Part shown: positions 27,567 through 34,610 of the stretch, one piece after another
How the letters are laid out: each line of letters begins with the position of its first letter
Numbering within the stretch: the first letter of the stretch is position 1
Assembly: GCA_002869885.2 (NCBI GenBank)
Contig: NEWR02000009.1
Span: 604,773 to 668,772 of the forward strand
Source of the DNA: Nitrospira sp. CG24C
GTDB lineage: Bacteria > Nitrospirota > Nitrospiria > Nitrospirales > Nitrospiraceae
DNA: 64,000 nucleotides
Direction: 5' to 3'
Notes under the pieces: model-generated
Databases searched by the model: none
Told to the model about the DNA's origin: nothing
Seen by the model: only the letters and a program-made list of their open reading frames with translations
Translations under genes and position numbers: made by a program

Positions 27567-28586
27567 TCAGGAACCATTTCCTGAGTCGGGCGTGCGACTT
27601 TCCTGAATGACCGCCGCGCGCCCACCCAGCATTGCCAGGCACAATAGCCCGATTCCAATCCAGACCAGTTCGCGGAACCGCCGGAGTAATGCGAAGGCAA
27701 TGCCCGTCACGTCGGAGTACCCAAAGGCCTTGAGCAACAATACATTCCCTCCGTCTTGGGCGCCGAGGCTGCCGGGAATGAAGAAGGTGCCGCCTTTGAT
27801 GAAGACGGAAAGGGCGCCGATGGAGATGGCGGAAAGGGCCATAGCAGGACCGCCCAGATAATAGACGATGACGTACACTTCCAACGCTTCCGCCATCCAG
27901 CCAAGAAAGAACAGCCCGGTAGAGGCATAAAAGGCCGGACGGTTGTCACGGTAAAACTCCAAGATCGTTCGATCCAGTGACCGTAGCTTTTCTTCACGCG
28001 CTTCGAGGTAGGCGATCTTCAGCCCGATCTTCCGCAGAAATCCCAATAACCACGTAAAAATCCCCTGCCGCTGCACGAACACGAACGCCGCAGTCCCGAA
28101 GGCCAGCAAGCCCACACTGACCAGTGCGGCAGCCACGGTGTGACCGGACGAATCGTTCTCGCCTAACAGCCACACCCCCAATGCGATGCCGAGCAAAATG
28201 AAGAGCACTTCGGCAATCGTCATCGTCGTTTTTGCAATGATGACCGAGGCGAGTCCCTCCACCATCGGCACATGGTGTTTCTTGAGCAAATAGGCCTTGA
28301 GCGGCTCGCCTCCGACATAGGCGGTCGGGGTCGTCATGTTCACCACTTCGCCGGCAGTCCGAATCGCGAGCACACGCCAGAACGGAATCGCCTTCGCCGA
28401 CGGGCCAAGCGTGACTTTCCACCCGTAGGCTTCGACGACGTACATGATGACGGAAGGAATCAGCAGGACGAGAAGCGCCACCGGCCCGAGCTGCGCCGCC
28501 GCATCGTAGATCTGCCCAGGACCGATATGCCAGACAATGAGACCGAGTGTGAGAAGACCGACGACGAGTAGGAAAAATTTTAGCAC
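27567..28586 (-). CDS. Flippase-like membrane protein (LPG synthase TM/UPF0104 family)
   Basis: 339 residues with about eight membrane segments. Seen: AYGWKVTLGPSAKAIPFWRVL, TPTAYVGGEPLKAYLLKKHH (the family's G-G-E-P-x-K motif) and FFIPGSLGAQDGGNVLLLKAFG. The family includes the membrane domain of lysylphosphatidylglycerol synthase/flippases and HpnL. It is likely to move or modify a lipid at the inner membrane. Lies downstream of the head-group operon but separated by a 380-base repeat region, so co-transcription is uncertain. GTG start; no clear ribosome site. Confidence 0.8.
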   Translation of the reverse strand: MLKFFLLVVGLLTLGLIVWHIGPGQIYDAAAQLGPVALLVLLIPSVIMYVVEAYGWKVTLGPSAKAIPFWRVLAIRTAGEVVNMTTPTAYVGGEPLKAYLLKKHHVPMVEGLASVIIAKTTMTIAEVLFILLGIALGVWLLGENDSSGHTVAAALVSVGLLAFGTAAFVFVQRQGIFTWLLGFLRKIGLKIAYLEAREEKLRSLDRTILEFYRDNRPAFYASTGLFFLGWMAEALEVYVIVYYLGGPAMALSAISIGALSVFIKGGTFFIPGSLGAQDGGNVLLLKAFGYSDVTGIAFALLRRFRELVWIGIGLLCLAMLGGRAAVIQESRTPDSGNGS

Positions 28587-28659
28587 GCTGGGCTAGGAAT
28601 CCACGGTGAGAAAAAACAGGCAGGCATGGAGGAACATATCTTTATTTCCACTCCTTCAG

Positions 28660-28960
28660 CAAGGGAGCGGCCAAGGCTGCCCTTTACTGCGCGCGACATT
28701 CTTACCCGCCCAACCCCGATCGCGTCGAGACGCGCTCTTCTCCCTGGCGAGCACCGTAGATCTACTACAATGATCCTTCCAAGCTCGCTCGTTTTTCCCT
28801 TTGGGAAGGGCACCCATGTTGGTCTAAGTGCGGCCGTCGAACGAGGCCCTTCTCAGGGCGCGCGTTCCGGGAGCACAGGACCAAAGTGCGGCCGTCGAAC
28901 GAGGCCCTTCTCAGGGCGCGCGTTCCGGGAGCACAGGACCAACGTGGGTGCCCTTCCCAT
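28660..28960 (+). repeat. Composite foldback repeat, family 2 (copy 3)
   Basis: The gap 28587-28968 is filled by AAGGCTGCCCTTTACTGCGC, CTTACCCGCCCAACCCC, CCTTCCAAGCTCGCTCGTTT, and then a perfect-looking foldback: GGGAAGGGCACCCATGTTGG at 28803 and its inverted copy (one mismatch over 22 bases) at 28937-28958. Between the arms sit two tandem 58-bp units starting at 28826 and 28884, each with GTCGAACGAGGCCCTTCTCA and GAGCACAGGACC. Confidence 0.85.
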
Positions 28961-28968
28961 CTTTTCTG

Positions 28969-30399
28969 CTAAGCACGGGTGGTGGCGGACGGCCTGATGA
29001 CCCAGAGCATCAGAAGCGAGAATACCATGGATCCGATCGCCGCCATCCAGAGGAACCAATCAAGCTTGCCGATCACCGCAAACGTCAGCACGATGACGGA
29101 GAAGTCGCGGCTCGCGACGTTCTTGAGCATGAAGTCCGACCAGGCAGCCTGCACCGGTGTCTTCCATCCGCTTGCGGACTTAATTTTTTGTGCGCGGGTG
29201 ACGAGCCAGAACGAGAGCCCGTTCCCCAGGACCGCTGCCGAACCCAGGGCCAGAGGCACCCATGCACCGTCGTCCCCGGCCATACTCAGATAGGAGCCCA
29301 CCGCAATACCGGCAAAAATCGCCATATGCACTACATTGTCCATCGCGATATCGAGCCAGGCCCCGAATGGCGATTCAGTGAACGTGAGCCTCGCCACTTC
29401 ACCATCGCAACAGTCGATGACTGCCGCCAATTGAAACAACAACGCGGCCACGATGCCGGCGCTGTAGGTCCCGACGCCGAAGCCGGCGGCCGCGGCCAAT
29501 CCAATCAGCGCCGCCAGAATCGTAATGACATTCGGCGACAAACCTACGGCGAGAAAGATGCGCGTGAACCAGCGGGAGATCTTTCGATTGAAAAACCGAT
29601 CGACGAAGCCTTCGAACTCGCCCTTGAGTGAATTGAAAAGCTTCACCTCAGCGGCCCGTACATCGGCGGCATTGCGCACGTCCTGATACCAATGGGACCG
29701 ATTCGTCTCCATGGACAGCACCCGCACATGCCCGTCCACCGCGGCCCGTTCAAGCCATCGACGAATCGGCATCGTGCCGGTTTCCACGTCGCCCTGCCCG
29801 CCGGCAGCGCTCATGAGATTGACCGGAAGCACGACCAGGTCTGCCGCCACCAGCGCTGCGTCGTCCTGTCTCGATGTGATCGAACGAAGCCGTCCAGCCT
29901 GTACCTTCACGCGTAAACTCTGCCGGCGTGGCTGCCGATCTCGCACGCCAGCGGCCCGAGCCACGATGATCGCCTGGCCCTCCTGTACTTCGTGCCGCAG
30001 GCTCTCGATCAAGGAACTCGCGAACACCCCCTGCACACCGGACAAGAGACAGAAGCCGCGAACTTCAGCGGCCAGCGATTCCCAGGTGCGGGGATCGTCC
30101 AGAGGAAACTCGCGAATCGGCATCCAGCGCACGGGAATGGTCAGGCGTGGCCCTTTACCCAACGCCTGTTTCAGCTGATCCTCCTCCGGTCCGACCAACA
30201 CCATGAGCTGTCGAATGCCGGCTCGCTGCAGCGTCAACACCGTCCGCTGAAACAGGCCGATTCCCACCACGCTGGTGAGCGGACCCACCTCATCGGCATA
30301 CAGTCCGGTCGCCTCGCCGAACAGACTCACTGACGGAAAGAGAATCGCCGTACTCAATCCCTGAAGGCCCGTCTGTCTCTGAACGATACTCTCACTCAT
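28969..30399 (-). CDS. CDP-alcohol phosphotransferase fused to a nucleotidyltransferase-like domain
   Basis: 476 residues. C-terminal half (about 265-470): membrane CDP-alcohol phosphotransferase with a complete motif D-x2-D-G-x2-A-R-x8-G-x3-D-x3-D, read as DCCDGEVAR, eight residues, then GAWLDIAMD. It would move a phospho- or phosphono-head group from a CDP/CMP-activated donor to an alcohol. N-terminal half (about 15-240) resembles MobA/GlmU-like nucleotidyltransferases (VVGIGLFQRTVLTLQRAGIRQLMVLVG) but lacks the G-x-G-x-R nucleotide loop. Architecture recalls archaeal inositol-phosphate cytidylyltransferase/DIPP synthase fusions. Last gene of the operon starting at 33413. Confidence 0.82.
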   Translation of the reverse strand: MSESIVQRQTGLQGLSTAILFPSVSLFGEATGLYADEVGPLTSVVGIGLFQRTVLTLQRAGIRQLMVLVGPEEDQLKQALGKGPRLTIPVRWMPIREFPLDDPRTWESLAAEVRGFCLLSGVQGVFASSLIESLRHEVQEGQAIIVARAAGVRDRQPRRQSLRVKVQAGRLRSITSRQDDAALVAADLVVLPVNLMSAAGGQGDVETGTMPIRRWLERAAVDGHVRVLSMETNRSHWYQDVRNAADVRAAEVKLFNSLKGEFEGFVDRFFNRKISRWFTRIFLAVGLSPNVITILAALIGLAAAAGFGVGTYSAGIVAALLFQLAAVIDCCDGEVARLTFTESPFGAWLDIAMDNVVHMAIFAGIAVGSYLSMAGDDGAWVPLALGSAAVLGNGLSFWLVTRAQKIKSASGWKTPVQAAWSDFMLKNVASRDFSVIVLTFAVIGKLDWFLWMAAIGSMVFSLLMLWVIRPSATTRA

Positions 30400-30468
30400 A
30401 ATGGCTGATCATCCCGACGCCTTAAGAACCAATATCCTATTTACCCCGTTACCCCACTACCCCCGCTT

Positions 30469-31188
30469 TTAGAGTTTCGGCAACACATCCCGTTCCGCTT
30501 TCGTCACATCTTCCACAAAATCGATTTCGGTCCAGGGAAGTCCACCGATCTTCTCATGCCCCACTTTGACATCGCGGAAAAATCCCACGAGCGCATCTTC
30601 ATATTCCATCTGCCAGGCTTCGCGATCCACATGAGTCTTGAGCGACGCCACCACATGCGGCGCATCGGCATGCCGAACCTTGAGAAACCCCACGCCTTCT
30701 CCGGCATAGTCGTAATGCAGGGGCATTGTTTTCGTCAGCGCAATCACCCGCCCGCCTTCGACCACAACCATGCACTCTTCTCCAGTCTGCTTGACAGTAT
30801 CATCCATAAGCAGCGCGTTCTCATAGGGGGATTCTACCAGGCGACGCAAGATCTCTTGATGGAAGAGCACGTCTGCATCCATGATGATCGCGTCGTCATC
30901 CAACGCGGCGCGCGCGATCCAGAGCGAGGAAATGCTGCCGCGGTGGAACTGCTCATTCACAAGGAAATTCACGCGAACACCACAAGAATTCGCGGCCACC
31001 GCCGCGCGAATCATCTCTTGTTTGTAACCCACCACTATATCGGCACAATGAATACCGACGCTCAGAAGCGATGTGAGGTAGCGATGCAGGAGGGTCTGCC
31101 CGCCGATCTCGATGAGACACTTCGGGCGATGTTGCGTGACCTGCCACAGGCGCTTCCCGACTCCGGCTGCGAGGATGACGGCTTTCAT
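30469..31188 (-). CDS. Nucleotidyltransferase, PntC/choline-phosphate-cytidylyltransferase-like
   Basis: 239 residues. Begins MKAVILAAGVGKRLWQ with the G-x-G-x-R-L loop, then HRPKCLIEIGGQTLLHRYL, the metal-site DADV (IIMDADVLF) and a C-terminal WTEIDFVEDVTKAE typical of sugar/phosphonate nucleotidyltransferases. Most likely activates the amine product of the neighbouring transaminase (aminoethylphosphonate) with CTP. In Treponema-type phosphonate clusters a similar domain is fused to the transaminase; here the two genes overlap by four bases instead. CTP and the acceptor are inferred. Confidence 0.8.
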   Translation of the reverse strand: MKAVILAAGVGKRLWQVTQHRPKCLIEIGGQTLLHRYLTSLLSVGIHCADIVVGYKQEMIRAAVAANSCGVRVNFLVNEQFHRGSISSLWIARAALDDDAIIMDADVLFHQEILRRLVESPYENALLMDDTVKQTGEECMVVVEGGRVIALTKTMPLHYDYAGEGVGFLKVRHADAPHVVASLKTHVDREAWQMEYEDALVGFFRDVKVGHEKIGGLPWTEIDFVEDVTKAERDVLPKL

Positions 31189-32267
31189 GCTGTGCCACAG
31201 ATCCGTTCGAATGCGTCGAGAAATCCCACCAACTGCGCCTCCGTGAGCGCGCCCATGTTCGCGACGCGGAAAATCTGGCTCTGGAGTTGGCCTTGTCCCG
31301 CATAGATCACGTAGCCCTCTTTCTTGAGTCGATCGTGCAGCGACTGATAGGTCACGCCCTCGGGAAGATGATAGGCGGTGATTGTGTTGGATAGTTTGTC
31401 CGGGGTCAAGAGCGGCTTCACGCCGAGTTTCGTCATACGGTCTCGAATCAAGGTCGCGACCTTCTTATACCGCTGGATCCGCTTGGCAACCCCTTCCTCC
31501 ATGAGTTCATTCAACGCTTCGTCGAATGCGTAATAGACCTGCACCGCCGGCGTGAACGGAATCGTCCCAAGGCCCTGGTCATCCACATATTGAGTGATGT
31601 GAAGATAGATCGACCGCCTGGGATAGCCGCGCATCCGCTCCAGAAATCCCTTGCGGACGAGCACGAAGGACACACCGGGGAATCCCTGAATGCACTTTCC
31701 CGCTGTACCTGCCACCATATAGATATGAGACCCAGCGATATCCAACGGCTCGCCTGCCAAGGCGCTGACCGCATCGAGAATGAACACCCGGTTCTGGCTG
31801 TCCACGACAGCCGCGATCTCCTTGACTGGATTGATGAGCCCGGTGGTCGTTTCGTGATGGACCATGGCGACCGCATGCGCTTCCGGATGTTGCCGCAGCG
31901 CAAGCCGCAACCGTTCAGGATCCGGTCTTGTCGTCCAATCGTATTTAAGCTCAGACACGCCCAGACGATAGAGGCCGACCATCTGGGAAATACGTTCGCC
32001 GTATACGCCGTTATTGAGCACCAGCATCCGTTTGCCAGGTGGGAGCGACGACATCACGGCGGACTCGACTGCCGCAGTACCAGATCCGGTCAACACCACG
32101 GCGGCATAATCCGATTCCGCTCCCGGCACAAAGAGCTTCAGCAACTTCGCCTGAATCCCGTGCAGGAGTTCGGTAAATTCCGACTCCCGATGGCAGACAT
32201 CGGGACGCACCAGCGCTTGCCGCACCCGCTCCGACACATTCACCGGTCCTGGATTCAATAAGATCAT
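31185..32267 (-). CDS. 2-aminoethylphosphonate--pyruvate transaminase-like (PhnW/AepT, class V)
   Basis: 360 residues, PLP enzyme of aminotransferase class V. Seen: NPGPVNVSERVRQAL, LTGSGTAAVESAVMSSLP, MVHHETTTGLINPVKEI, ILDAVSALAGEPLDI and the PLP-lysine region TAGKCIQGFPGVSFVLVRK. The K-C-x-Q-G-x-P-G string is characteristic of the AEP transaminase group. In a biosynthetic setting it would aminate phosphonoacetaldehyde to 2-aminoethylphosphonate. Sulfoacetaldehyde to taurine is the alternative. GGGGTGAGGGG lies upstream as ribosome site. Confidence 0.85.
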   Translation of the reverse strand: MILLNPGPVNVSERVRQALVRPDVCHRESEFTELLHGIQAKLLKLFVPGAESDYAAVVLTGSGTAAVESAVMSSLPPGKRMLVLNNGVYGERISQMVGLYRLGVSELKYDWTTRPDPERLRLALRQHPEAHAVAMVHHETTTGLINPVKEIAAVVDSQNRVFILDAVSALAGEPLDIAGSHIYMVAGTAGKCIQGFPGVSFVLVRKGFLERMRGYPRRSIYLHITQYVDDQGLGTIPFTPAVQVYYAFDEALNELMEEGVAKRIQRYKKVATLIRDRMTKLGVKPLLTPDKLSNTITAYHLPEGVTYQSLHDRLKKEGYVIYAGQGQLQSQIFRVANMGALTEAQLVGFLDAFERICGTA

Positions 32268-32311
32268 TTCGTCTTTCTTCCCCTCACCCCTTACGCCTTA
32301 CCCCTCACGAG

Positions 32312-32890
32312 CTACTTGATCGCCTGCATGAACCGTTTCGTAATATCCGGCGGATCGAGCATCACGCGCCCGGCATCTTCCACCATCTCGTTGACTTTCA
32401 CCAGCAACATGCTCGGTCCGTCTTTCTTCAGCATGTCTTTGAACTCGTAGACGAGGTCTTCACGTTCCCGTACTCGTTCGACGTTTACATACCCGGCCGC
32501 CTTCGCCACCTTCTCAAGTGGGACCACATTGGAAATCGTCGGCTGATTGCCGGTCGTGCCGTAGACTTCGTTGTCGAACACCACATGAATGAAGTTCTTC
32601 GGCTTCAGCGCCCCCACTGTCGCAAGCGTTCCCATGCCCATGAGGACGTTCCCGTCGCCGTCGAACACGATCACTTGTTTATTCGGCTTCGACAACGCCA
32701 CGCCTAACGCAATCGCCGCCGCCGACCCCATCGAACCGATCATATAGAAATGAGTCGGCCTATCGGCGATCTTTTGCGCCTCACGAGACGGAAATCCATT
32801 ACAAATGATGACGGGCTGGTCGGTAAGCAATTCCAACAATGCAGCCATTGCCATGGCCCGGCTCTGCATGGTCCCTTGCTCCGGCCTCAT
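32312..32890 (-). CDS. Phosphonopyruvate/sulfopyruvate decarboxylase, beta (TPP-binding) subunit
   Basis: 192 residues. Contains the thiamine-diphosphate motif G-D-G-N-x(~24)-N (FDGDGNVLMGMGTL ... HVVFDN) and MIGSMGSAAAIALGVAL, as in the C-terminal half of phosphonopyruvate decarboxylase and in ComE of sulfopyruvate decarboxylase. It follows the alpha gene after 25 bases. Split two-subunit layout (165+192 residues) matches ComD/ComE; context (PhnW-like transaminase, nucleotidyltransferase) favours phosphonopyruvate. Substrate therefore left open. Confidence 0.85.
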   Translation of the reverse strand: MRPEQGTMQSRAMAMAALLELLTDQPVIICNGFPSREAQKIADRPTHFYMIGSMGSAAAIALGVALSKPNKQVIVFDGDGNVLMGMGTLATVGALKPKNFIHVVFDNEVYGTTGNQPTISNVVPLEKVAKAAGYVNVERVREREDLVYEFKDMLKKDGPSMLLVKVNEMVEDAGRVMLDPPDITKRFMQAIK

Positions 32891-32915
32891 GGGTTGTCCT
32901 CACGCTTCACGTCCG

Positions 32916-33413
32916 TCACGGATGCAATCCCTTCACGACGCCCTTTGTGATATTCAACGCCACAGGAATCCGTTTTTTCATAAACGTCTCGGCTACCCAC
33001 TTCAGATCGTCGATGGCCGTCTTTTCCGTCAGCGTGCGATGAGGAATCTTCATCGTATCGAGAAACTGCGGCATGACTTCGCCCATCACCAGATGCTCCG
33101 GCGCATCTTTGCCGCCTTGGCCCCGCCAGGACACGATCAGGATGCAGGGTTGCTGATAGATATAGTTGAGGGAAATGAGCGTATTGAGCGATGTCCCTAG
33201 CCCGGAATTCTGCATCAACACGGCGGGAATCTTGCCGGCCATATAGGCTCCGGCTGCCATGGCTACGGCTTCGTCCTCACGCACTGCCGGGGTATAGAGA
33301 CGCCGCTCCATCAACTCCGCAATAATGCCTCCCAGAATCGAGTCCGGAACCCCCGTAAAGAAATCCACCCCAATATCTTGCAGGGCTTGGACGAACGTAT
33401 CGCTCTCAATCAT
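32916..33413 (-). CDS. Phosphonopyruvate/sulfopyruvate decarboxylase, alpha subunit
   Basis: 165 residues, the N-terminal pyrimidine-binding half of the same TPP enzyme: DFFTGVPDSILGGIIAEL, VREDEAVAMAAGAYMAG (catalytic Glu region) and MQNSGLGTSLNTLISLNYIY, all typical of the family. First gene of the operon. The end (KGVVKGLHP) and the start of the beta gene are both clean, so this is a natural split rather than a broken single gene. Confidence 0.85.
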   Translation of the reverse strand: MIESDTFVQALQDIGVDFFTGVPDSILGGIIAELMERRLYTPAVREDEAVAMAAGAYMAGKIPAVLMQNSGLGTSLNTLISLNYIYQQPCILIVSWRGQGGKDAPEHLVMGEVMPQFLDTMKIPHRTLTEKTAIDDLKWVAETFMKKRIPVALNITKGVVKGLHP

Positions 33414-33535: not shown

Positions 33536-34069
33536 ATGATCGGGCAACAGAAGCATCACGTGGGCCGATACCTTGTCCTATTGTGCCTCCTGCTCTGTAT
33601 GGGCCGCCCTTTTCTCGCCCATGCGGTGCCGATGATGAATGACCCGAACGGTTTTCAGAGCCTGGCCTGGGGCATTGCCTTGGCCACGCGGCCAGACTTG
33701 GAAGTGGCCAGAGCAGGTCCGCATGTGAATGAATACCGATTGAAACAGGGCCCGCCATCGTATGCCGGAATCCCGGTCGAGAGCCTCCTGCTGTTATCGG
33801 TCGGCGAGCAGTTCGCCCGCGTGACCATTCACTATCAAGGCGAGGATCGGCACAAACAGATCCTCACCTACCTGGAACGTCAGTTCGGTTCCCTTGAGCG
33901 CATCCCAGGGCAGATGATGCGGGGCCTCAATCAGCAATATACGTGGCGCGGGACCGATACCGAAATCAACGTGACGTACCATGCGAACACAGAAAGGGGA
34001 TTTATCTTCATCGACAGTCGCACCCTGGCCCCTCTATTCAACGACCATATCAGCGATTCGGCGGAATAA
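33536..34069 (+). CDS. Exported protein, tandem paralogue A
   Basis: 177 residues, family not recognised. Signal peptide about 10-30 (YLVLLCLLLCMGRPFLAHA) followed by VPMMNDPNGFQSLAWG. The mature part is a small alpha/beta protein with FARVTIHYQGEDRHKQILTYL and IPGQMMRG. It aligns over its length with the next gene: same mature start V-P-M-x-N-D-P-N-G-F, same VTxxYQG and PGQ positions. Divergent from the head-group operon. No clear ribosome site is seen before the ATG. Confidence 0.78.
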   Translation: MIGQQKHHVGRYLVLLCLLLCMGRPFLAHAVPMMNDPNGFQSLAWGIALATRPDLEVARAGPHVNEYRLKQGPPSYAGIPVESLLLLSVGEQFARVTIHYQGEDRHKQILTYLERQFGSLERIPGQMMRGLNQQYTWRGTDTEINVTYHANTERGFIFIDSRTLAPLFNDHISDSAE

Positions 34070-34070
34070 C

Positions 34071-34610
34071 ATGCCTCGCCGCCCCCGCACAACCCGTTGG
34101 GTCCGCTACATTTCCCCCCTCGTCCTTTTCTTCTCGCTCATCCTGCAGGGCGCCCCGGCATCAGCCGTGCCGATGCAGAACGATCCAAATGGGTTCGAGG
34201 GAATCCCCTGGGGAGCAACATTTTCGGAAACCGACAGCTTCATGAAAGTCGAGGACGCCGGTCGGTCACAAACCTATGAGCTGAAGACCGGGATTCCTTC
34301 TCTAGGCCCAGTGAAGGTCGACTCCATGCGATTCGTCACCGCCGAAGGCAAGTTCGCGCGTGTGACTGTCCGCTACCAAGGCAAGGCAACCCACGACCAG
34401 ATTCTTGCCTATCTTCAATCCCTCTACGGCCCGCTCGACCGCACACCGGGTCAGATCGCCAGCGGCCCCGTCAAATTCTTTAGCTGGACTGGGTTCGAAA
34501 CCGATGTGAAACTCCGCTACGAGATCGGCACCGACCGCGGTATCATCTTCTTCGAGAGCCAGCAACTCCGCCGAAAAATGACCGACAGCAACACAAACAC
34601 CGTGTTTTAA
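34071..34610 (+). CDS. Exported protein, tandem paralogue B
   Basis: 179 residues, paralogue of the gene just upstream, starting one base after its stop with GGCGGA ahead. Signal peptide about 12-33 (ISPLVLFFSLILQGAPASA), then VPMQNDPNGFEGIPWG, FARVTVRYQGKATHDQILAYL and RTPGQIASGP. The conserved core between the two copies includes N-D-P-N-G-F near the mature N-terminus and R-V-T-(V/I)-x-Y-Q-G mid-protein. Function unknown; likely a periplasmic pair. Confidence 0.78.
   Translation: MPRRPRTTRWVRYISPLVLFFSLILQGAPASAVPMQNDPNGFEGIPWGATFSETDSFMKVEDAGRSQTYELKTGIPSLGPVKVDSMRFVTAEGKFARVTVRYQGKATHDQILAYLQSLYGPLDRTPGQIASGPVKFFSWTGFETDVKLRYEIGTDRGIIFFESQQLRRKMTDSNTNTVF

Follow-up and report, generated by a model that had tools for sequence, protein, structure and literature searches.

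Clusters in Nostoc and Burkholderia combine pepM, a phosphoenolpyruvate (PEP) mutase gene with a fused nucleotidyltransferase (NTP-transferase) domain, with genes for phosphonopyruvate decarboxylase (ppd), 2-aminoethylphosphonate (AEP) transaminase (AEPT), an NTP transferase and a CDP-alcohol phosphotransferase, and with hpnL. In the available text of the Nostoc study, the same set is presented as phosphonate biosynthetic genes in the legend of Fig. 7 and discussed in terms of phosphonate lipids (PMC5987646). In Burkholderia stagnalis (NZ_CP156686.1, L212), the same functions lie together on one strand, and the PepM motif is EDKQFPKTNS. An operon that shares these functions is found in Nitrospira sp. 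CG24C, within a 64,000-nucleotide stretch of contig NEWR02000009.1 (the window). Together with a PepM encoded outside the window, the operon likely builds AEP; activation to cytidine monophosphate (CMP)-AEP is predicted to follow, and the acceptor of the final transfer would be an alcohol, probably in the form of a membrane lipid. This reading as a whole is held with fair confidence, and the route as far as CMP-AEP with high confidence. The gene set itself is thus already known, both clustered in Burkholderia and published for Nostoc; what is new is the presence of two mutually exclusive classes of PepM-like proteins in 146 genomes sampled evenly from the order.

The five open reading frames (ORFs) of the operon were verified at 28969-33413 on the minus strand, with a flippase-like gene beyond:

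32916..33413, minus strand: PpdA-like, N-terminal (PYR) subunit of a split phosphonopyruvate decarboxylase, 165 amino acids (TIGR03297 and 9iz3)
32312..32890, minus strand: PpdB-like, C-terminal (PP) subunit of the split decarboxylase, 192 amino acids (TIGR03297 and 9iz3)
31185..32267, minus strand: AEP transaminase-like protein (PhnW/AEPT), a class-V aminotransferase, 360 amino acids (NCBIfam)
30469..31188, minus strand: PntC-like CTP:AEP cytidylyltransferase, 239 amino acids (6pd1 match and conserved residues)
28969..30399, minus strand: membrane CDP-alcohol phosphotransferase with a degenerate nucleotidyltransferase-like N-domain, 476 amino acids (Pfam, motif and fold)
27567..28586, minus strand: HpnL-like or flippase-like membrane protein, 339 amino acids (PF03706, TIGR00374)

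Each assignment of an operon gene is backed by Pfam and NCBIfam profile matches, which together with the ORFs confirm the order given in the original prediction, made from the DNA letters alone: a split thiamine pyrophosphate-dependent decarboxylase, a transaminase, a nucleotidyltransferase, a CDP-alcohol phosphotransferase and a flippase-like gene. The split of the decarboxylase is real, with two separate ORFs, and the start of the PntC-like gene overlaps the AEPT stop by 4 bases.

In the pathway proposed from the genes, motifs, placement and co-occurrence observed, with every reaction and the product predicted from sequence, the off-window PepM would convert PEP to phosphonopyruvate, which PpdA and PpdB together would decarboxylate to phosphonoacetaldehyde. 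The AEPT would aminate this aldehyde to AEP, and the stand-alone PntC of the operon would convert AEP to CMP-AEP. The CDP-alcohol phosphotransferase would then pass AEP from CMP-AEP to an alcohol acceptor with release of CMP, and the HpnL-like protein might carry the product to the other side of the membrane. The AEP-type phosphonate head-group pathway put forward originally is supported by the Ppd, AEPT, PntC and CDP-alcohol phosphotransferase genes, and by the PepM elsewhere in the genome.

The operon had been described as one without PEP mutase, which is true of the window itself but not of the organism. A search for pepM in the genome, which is estimated to be 94% complete, places a canonical PepM on another contig (C8; G000:C8:53504-55165), and the oddity is therefore one of gene placement; in B. 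stagnalis, in contrast, PepM is clustered with the pathway. The genome's PepM has 554 amino acids, with a nucleotidyltransferase-like domain at the C-terminus. It scores 387.1 bits with TIGR02320, above the cut-off of 319.55, and 426 bits against the solved PEP mutase 1m1b, and its motif, EDKLFPKTNS, fits EDK(X)5NS. The best reason to tie this unlinked PepM to the operon comes from gene links in other genomes. Canonical PepM and an operon-type PntC gene share a 4-base overlap in G015 and G070, and in G070 a single-chain Ppd (418 bits) comes after the pair; in G066, PepM is followed by a single-chain Ppd (495 bits). The PepM-linked Ppd of G066 (L204:7024-9822) lies about 65 kb from the AEPT, PntC and phosphotransferase genes on the same contig.

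Among the 146 genomes, AEPT is found at greater than 50% identity in 134 (140 by a looser tally), the phosphotransferase at E <= 1e-15 in 136 and a PntC-type nucleotidyltransferase at E <= 1e-25 in 134. The PEP-mutase-like fusions form two similarity classes, such that 97 genomes have the canonical class, 36 the second, 13 neither and none both, where 24 genomes with both would be expected under independence. The canonical proteins are 49-100% identical to that of the window's genome, with EDK..NS in the 18 genomes read, and the second-class proteins share 46-100% identity with the one in G077. In 22 of the 36 second-class genomes, the gene is no more than 10 kb from AEPT. Named loci were fetched by phosphotransferase similarity (80 kept out of 104), and a tree was made of 57 of them, 23 of the 80 having been left out because genes were missing or flanks too short. 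On this tree, where a "no" means merely that no second-class gene lies upstream, the linked second class has been gained or lost at least five times, four of which are forced by well-supported branches.

Eleven of the 13 genomes with neither class have other members of the superfamily, and the five best of these, from four genomes, bear lyase-type motifs. PntC is missing in 9 of the 13, compared with 5 of the 133 genomes with a PepM class (Fisher p 1.9e-8); for the phosphotransferase, the figures are 7 of 13 and 5 of 133 (p 4.6e-6). Matches weaker than 1e-35 and 1e-40, respectively, were taken as absent, and the p values are not corrected for descent.

The second class carries the motif EDN(V/I)(Y/F)PKRCS in all 30 loci fetched by similarity and also in G019 (L203), a reading that leaves out G072, G008, G016 and G020, and ED(N/T)..PKRCS is found in the 120 database relatives listed of 3094. 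These 30 loci therefore fall outside EDK(X)5NS, with a lyase-like cysteine at the asparagine position of the PEP mutase motif; G026, assigned to the class on similarity, differs in reading EDKLFPKVNS, and its TIGR02320 score is 314.1 bits, against the cut-off of 319.55. Two other members reach 276.5 and 287.1 bits with this model, and 271-273 bits with the phosphonopyruvate-hydrolase model, below the cut-off in each case. In a tree that carries long-branch warnings, and in which one row (L108) stands apart from the rest, the class is placed outside the EDK..NS enzymes and closer to lyases; its origin as a derived PEP mutase nested within those enzymes is therefore unsupported. The motif and tree position weigh against taking mutase function for granted. 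Nonetheless, the second class and canonical PepM replace each other repeatedly and are never found together, with the rest of the pathway staying as it is, which argues for the same job in both. The chances are about even that the enzyme forming the C-P bond has been swapped repeatedly in Nitrospira, that the EDN..PK.CS class is a second, unrecognised type of PEP mutase and that widespread phosphonate makers among nitrifiers have been overlooked. If the class is not a mutase, its reaction would be a new way into the same Ppd-AEPT-PntC line. A second-class gene lies beside the operon in N. moscoviensis, which is in culture, and the class makes the role of the EDK(X)5NS motif directly testable. 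In their available text, published surveys of phosphonate makers required this motif (PMC6697681, PMC8931226); searches based on it would miss relatives such as these, and it may be too narrow to define phosphonate makers.

The fused domain of PepM was considered as the AEP cytidylyltransferase and is disfavoured, given that the arginine at the Arg15 site is absent throughout the sequences read. All 19 canonical-class loci read, which stand for 18 genomes since G073 appears twice, are without it, as are all 31 second-class loci counted (L101 left out, and one genome included twice) and the 120 database relatives of the second class that were listed. The lettering at the site is AASRGKEL in the window's genome and AASRGKGL in B. 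stagnalis, in which the fused domain likewise has no catalytic arginine. Without this residue, neither of the two fused nucleotidyltransferase-like domains, in PepM and in the phosphotransferase, is likely to act as the cytidylyltransferase. The arginine is missing from the canonical fusion both in Nitrospira (L003:8501-10165) and in the one Burkholderia sequence read (L212:5796-7817), and this common fusion partner of PepM may therefore often be non-catalytic.

The stand-alone protein of the operon is the better candidate. Among PDB entries it matches the Treponema denticola PntC-AEPT fusion best (6pd1/6pd2; E 1.8e-15 for 6pd1). Equivalents of Arg15, Lys25 and Lys153 of Tde-PntC, described as tested catalytic residues in the available text of PMC6697681, are kept in every aligned sequence that has a letter there (94, 94 and 96 of 96, some genomes twice). 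The operon protein has this catalytic Arg/Lys/Lys set, as well as the equivalent of Glu196, and its use of AEP as substrate is predicted. PntC adjoins AEPT in both the operon and the T. denticola Pnt pathway (PMC6697681, in part), although as one fusion in T. denticola and as two overlapping genes here, and Glu104 of T. denticola is Asp104 in the operon protein, as in LicC according to the portion of the source available. For AEPT, the three top NCBIfam models are all AEP transaminases (347, 270 and 263 bits, under cut-offs of 360.8, 296 and 400.8), and the best model of a different family reaches 173 bits.

Several observations weigh against the proposed pathway. The genome's own PepM is not close to the operon, and the canonical class is within 10 kb of AEPT in none of its 97 genomes, with 16 on the same contig at a distance of at least 65 kb. 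The single-chain Ppd of G066 also counts here, as does the score of AEPT with TIGR03301 (346.9 bits, cut-off 360.8). Loss of AEPT does not clearly go with loss of PepM: 3 of the 13 genomes that have neither class are without it, versus 9 of 133 (p 0.076, not corrected for descent). Five high-quality genomes (G027, G071, G114, G137 and G140) keep AEPT, and the Ppd subunits where read, and PepM, PntC and the phosphotransferase were not found in them (L056, L057, L198, L199 and L197, respectively); Ppd and AEPT may therefore serve another role too. Finally, the phosphotransferase has a six-helix architecture, and the fold that matches it best over its full length is that of an inositol-phosphate enzyme, the Archaeoglobus fulgidus IPCT-DIPPS (4mnd).

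These last two points bear on the acceptor. In the available text of PMC4634129, the six-helix fold is tied to soluble acceptors, and enzymes with lipid acceptors typically have 3-4 helices more. By this account, the same AEP pathway would end in transfer to a soluble or glycan acceptor, such as inositol phosphate, to give a phosphonate diester or a phosphonoglycan, an outcome that is possible but rather unlikely. Of the 80 named loci, 76 carry a flippase-like gene downstream in the same orientation, and the remaining 4 stop before it; the comparable Nostoc and Burkholderia clusters have been proposed as phosphonate-lipid genes, itself a prediction (PMC5987646, in part). The flippase-like protein scores 114.6 bits with PF03706 and 77.3 bits with TIGR00374 (cut-off 43.2), and 156.6 bits with the HpnL model TIGR03476, below the cut-off of 195.65. 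The final acceptor is thus uncertain, since the neighbouring genes suggest a lipid and the six-helix transferase resembles soluble-acceptor enzymes; a lipid is judged somewhat probable.

The phosphotransferase itself consists of a CDP-alcohol domain (residues ~265-471), which by its DxxDGxxAR...GxxxDxxxD motif and fold belongs to class I, and the nucleotidyltransferase-like N-domain (~14-258), which is not present in the 226-amino-acid enzyme of B. stagnalis. In contrast to the A. fulgidus enzyme, the N-domain has lost the GxGxR...PK nucleotide-binding signature, which by eye is found in none of 19 of the 20 aligned orthologues, those that keep the domain (L062 is without it). The bifunctional IPCT-DIPPS model NF041135 gives 92.5 bits versus a cut-off of 580. 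Eukaryotic choline/ethanolamine phosphotransferases are not among the best 50 fold matches listed in either search, and the fold searches leave other families possible for the CDP-alcohol domain. Matches to the fused phosphotransferase occur in 4 records of a plasmid collection, none with 80% coverage. An AEP lipid replacing missing phosphatidylethanolamine was rejected, as phosphatidylserine decarboxylase is present, and a literature search for published Nitrospira lipid head groups yielded nothing relevant among the matches listed.

Nitrospira are widespread nitrifiers of soils, waters and treatment plants. If the proposed AEP pathway is true, most members of the order produce an envelope compound with reduced phosphorus (C-P) and may be a source for the phosphorus redox cycle. 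In the literature on phosphonates in Nitrospira or comammox bacteria, one source that was checked and bears on the question is a lake study that, in its available text, reports pepM in Nitrospirota and lists Nitrospirota among the holders of phnW/phnX as degradation genes (PMC10734540). By that interpretation the PhnW-like enzyme would break down AEP, which is very unlikely here, as PEP mutase, Ppd, PntC and the phosphotransferase are synthesis genes and PhnX is not above its cut-off (TIGR01422, best 39 bits versus 220), in a search without a positive control, since none of 14 control genomes scored above the cut-off.

The split decarboxylase was originally taken to have the layout of sulfopyruvate decarboxylase (ComDE). 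This layout is not diagnostic, because RhiEF, in the available text of PMC12141560, is also a two-subunit phosphonopyruvate decarboxylase, one that serves the rhizocticin pathway and not an envelope pathway. RhiEF (9iz3) is the best solved relative of both subunits, with its alpha chain the best PDB match of PpdA (E 2.4e-27) and its beta chain that of PpdB (E 3.1e-27). In B. stagnalis, Ppd is instead a single ORF of 395 amino acids, matched by both subunits. PpdA alone scores 130 bits with the Ppd model TIGR03297 versus 109.8 with the ComD model (cut-off 147.95), and PpdB alone 176 bits versus 187.9 with the ComE model (cut-off 221.5); either subunit is half of the Ppd model, and hence below its cut-off. 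Joined, they reach 313.7 bits, narrowly above the cut-off of 312.5 (by 1.2 bits). Neither a single-chain nor another Ppd was found in the genome (94% estimated completeness), and ComA gave no matches there, in a search that detects it in the controls B. subtilis and M. jannaschii. A taurine-like sulfonate head group made through sulfopyruvate decarboxylase, which the slight preference of PpdB for the ComE model and the many source names of PpdB relatives that read sulfopyruvate decarboxylase would favour, is accordingly the least likely reading of all, given the failure to find ComA, the ComD and ComE scores under cut-off, the joined subunits passing the Ppd model, the kinship to RhiEF and a canonical PepM above its own cut-off. 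The phosphonate version holds, with a bearing on annotation: sources name PpdB relatives sulfopyruvate decarboxylase, and one phosphotransferase relative IPC transferase and DIPP synthase.

The operon layout is well kept. By title, 78 of the 80 named loci are from Nitrospira, Nitrospiraceae, Nitrospirae or Nitrospirota, and two are metagenome-assembled genomes (MAGs) labelled Nitrosospira; the window's phosphotransferase is 99% identical to a homologue in a MAG labelled Nitrospira lenta. The complete six-gene order is found in 70 of the 80. Eight of the other ten end at a contig boundary; in L125 the contig ends ahead of the flippase gene and PpdA also has no match, and L119 has only the phosphotransferase and flippase genes over 17 kb. 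In the 76 named loci with both genes, the AEPT and PntC ORFs, taken from their longest-ORF starts, overlap by 4 bases in 48 and 16 bases in 26; the other two are outliers. In 64 of 76 named loci, the phosphotransferase and flippase genes overlap or are at most 25 bases apart. In the window they are separated by a 382-base spacer (28587-28968) that carries two near-identical 63-base repeats, similar copies of which occur beyond the window (L006).

Upstream of the operon, two related small secreted-looking proteins (NDPxGF...) are encoded divergently on the plus strand at 33536-34069 and 34071-34610, with no Pfam match for either (the second searched as a longer ORF from 33981). Of the operon loci, 15 of the 20 unnamed ones and 70 of the 80 named ones have relatives of these proteins, among them those of G027 and G071, genomes that lost PepM. 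A broken duplicate of the AEPT-PntC-phosphotransferase stretch lies about 17 kb from the intact copy in one genome (G105:C1:1224271-1227546).

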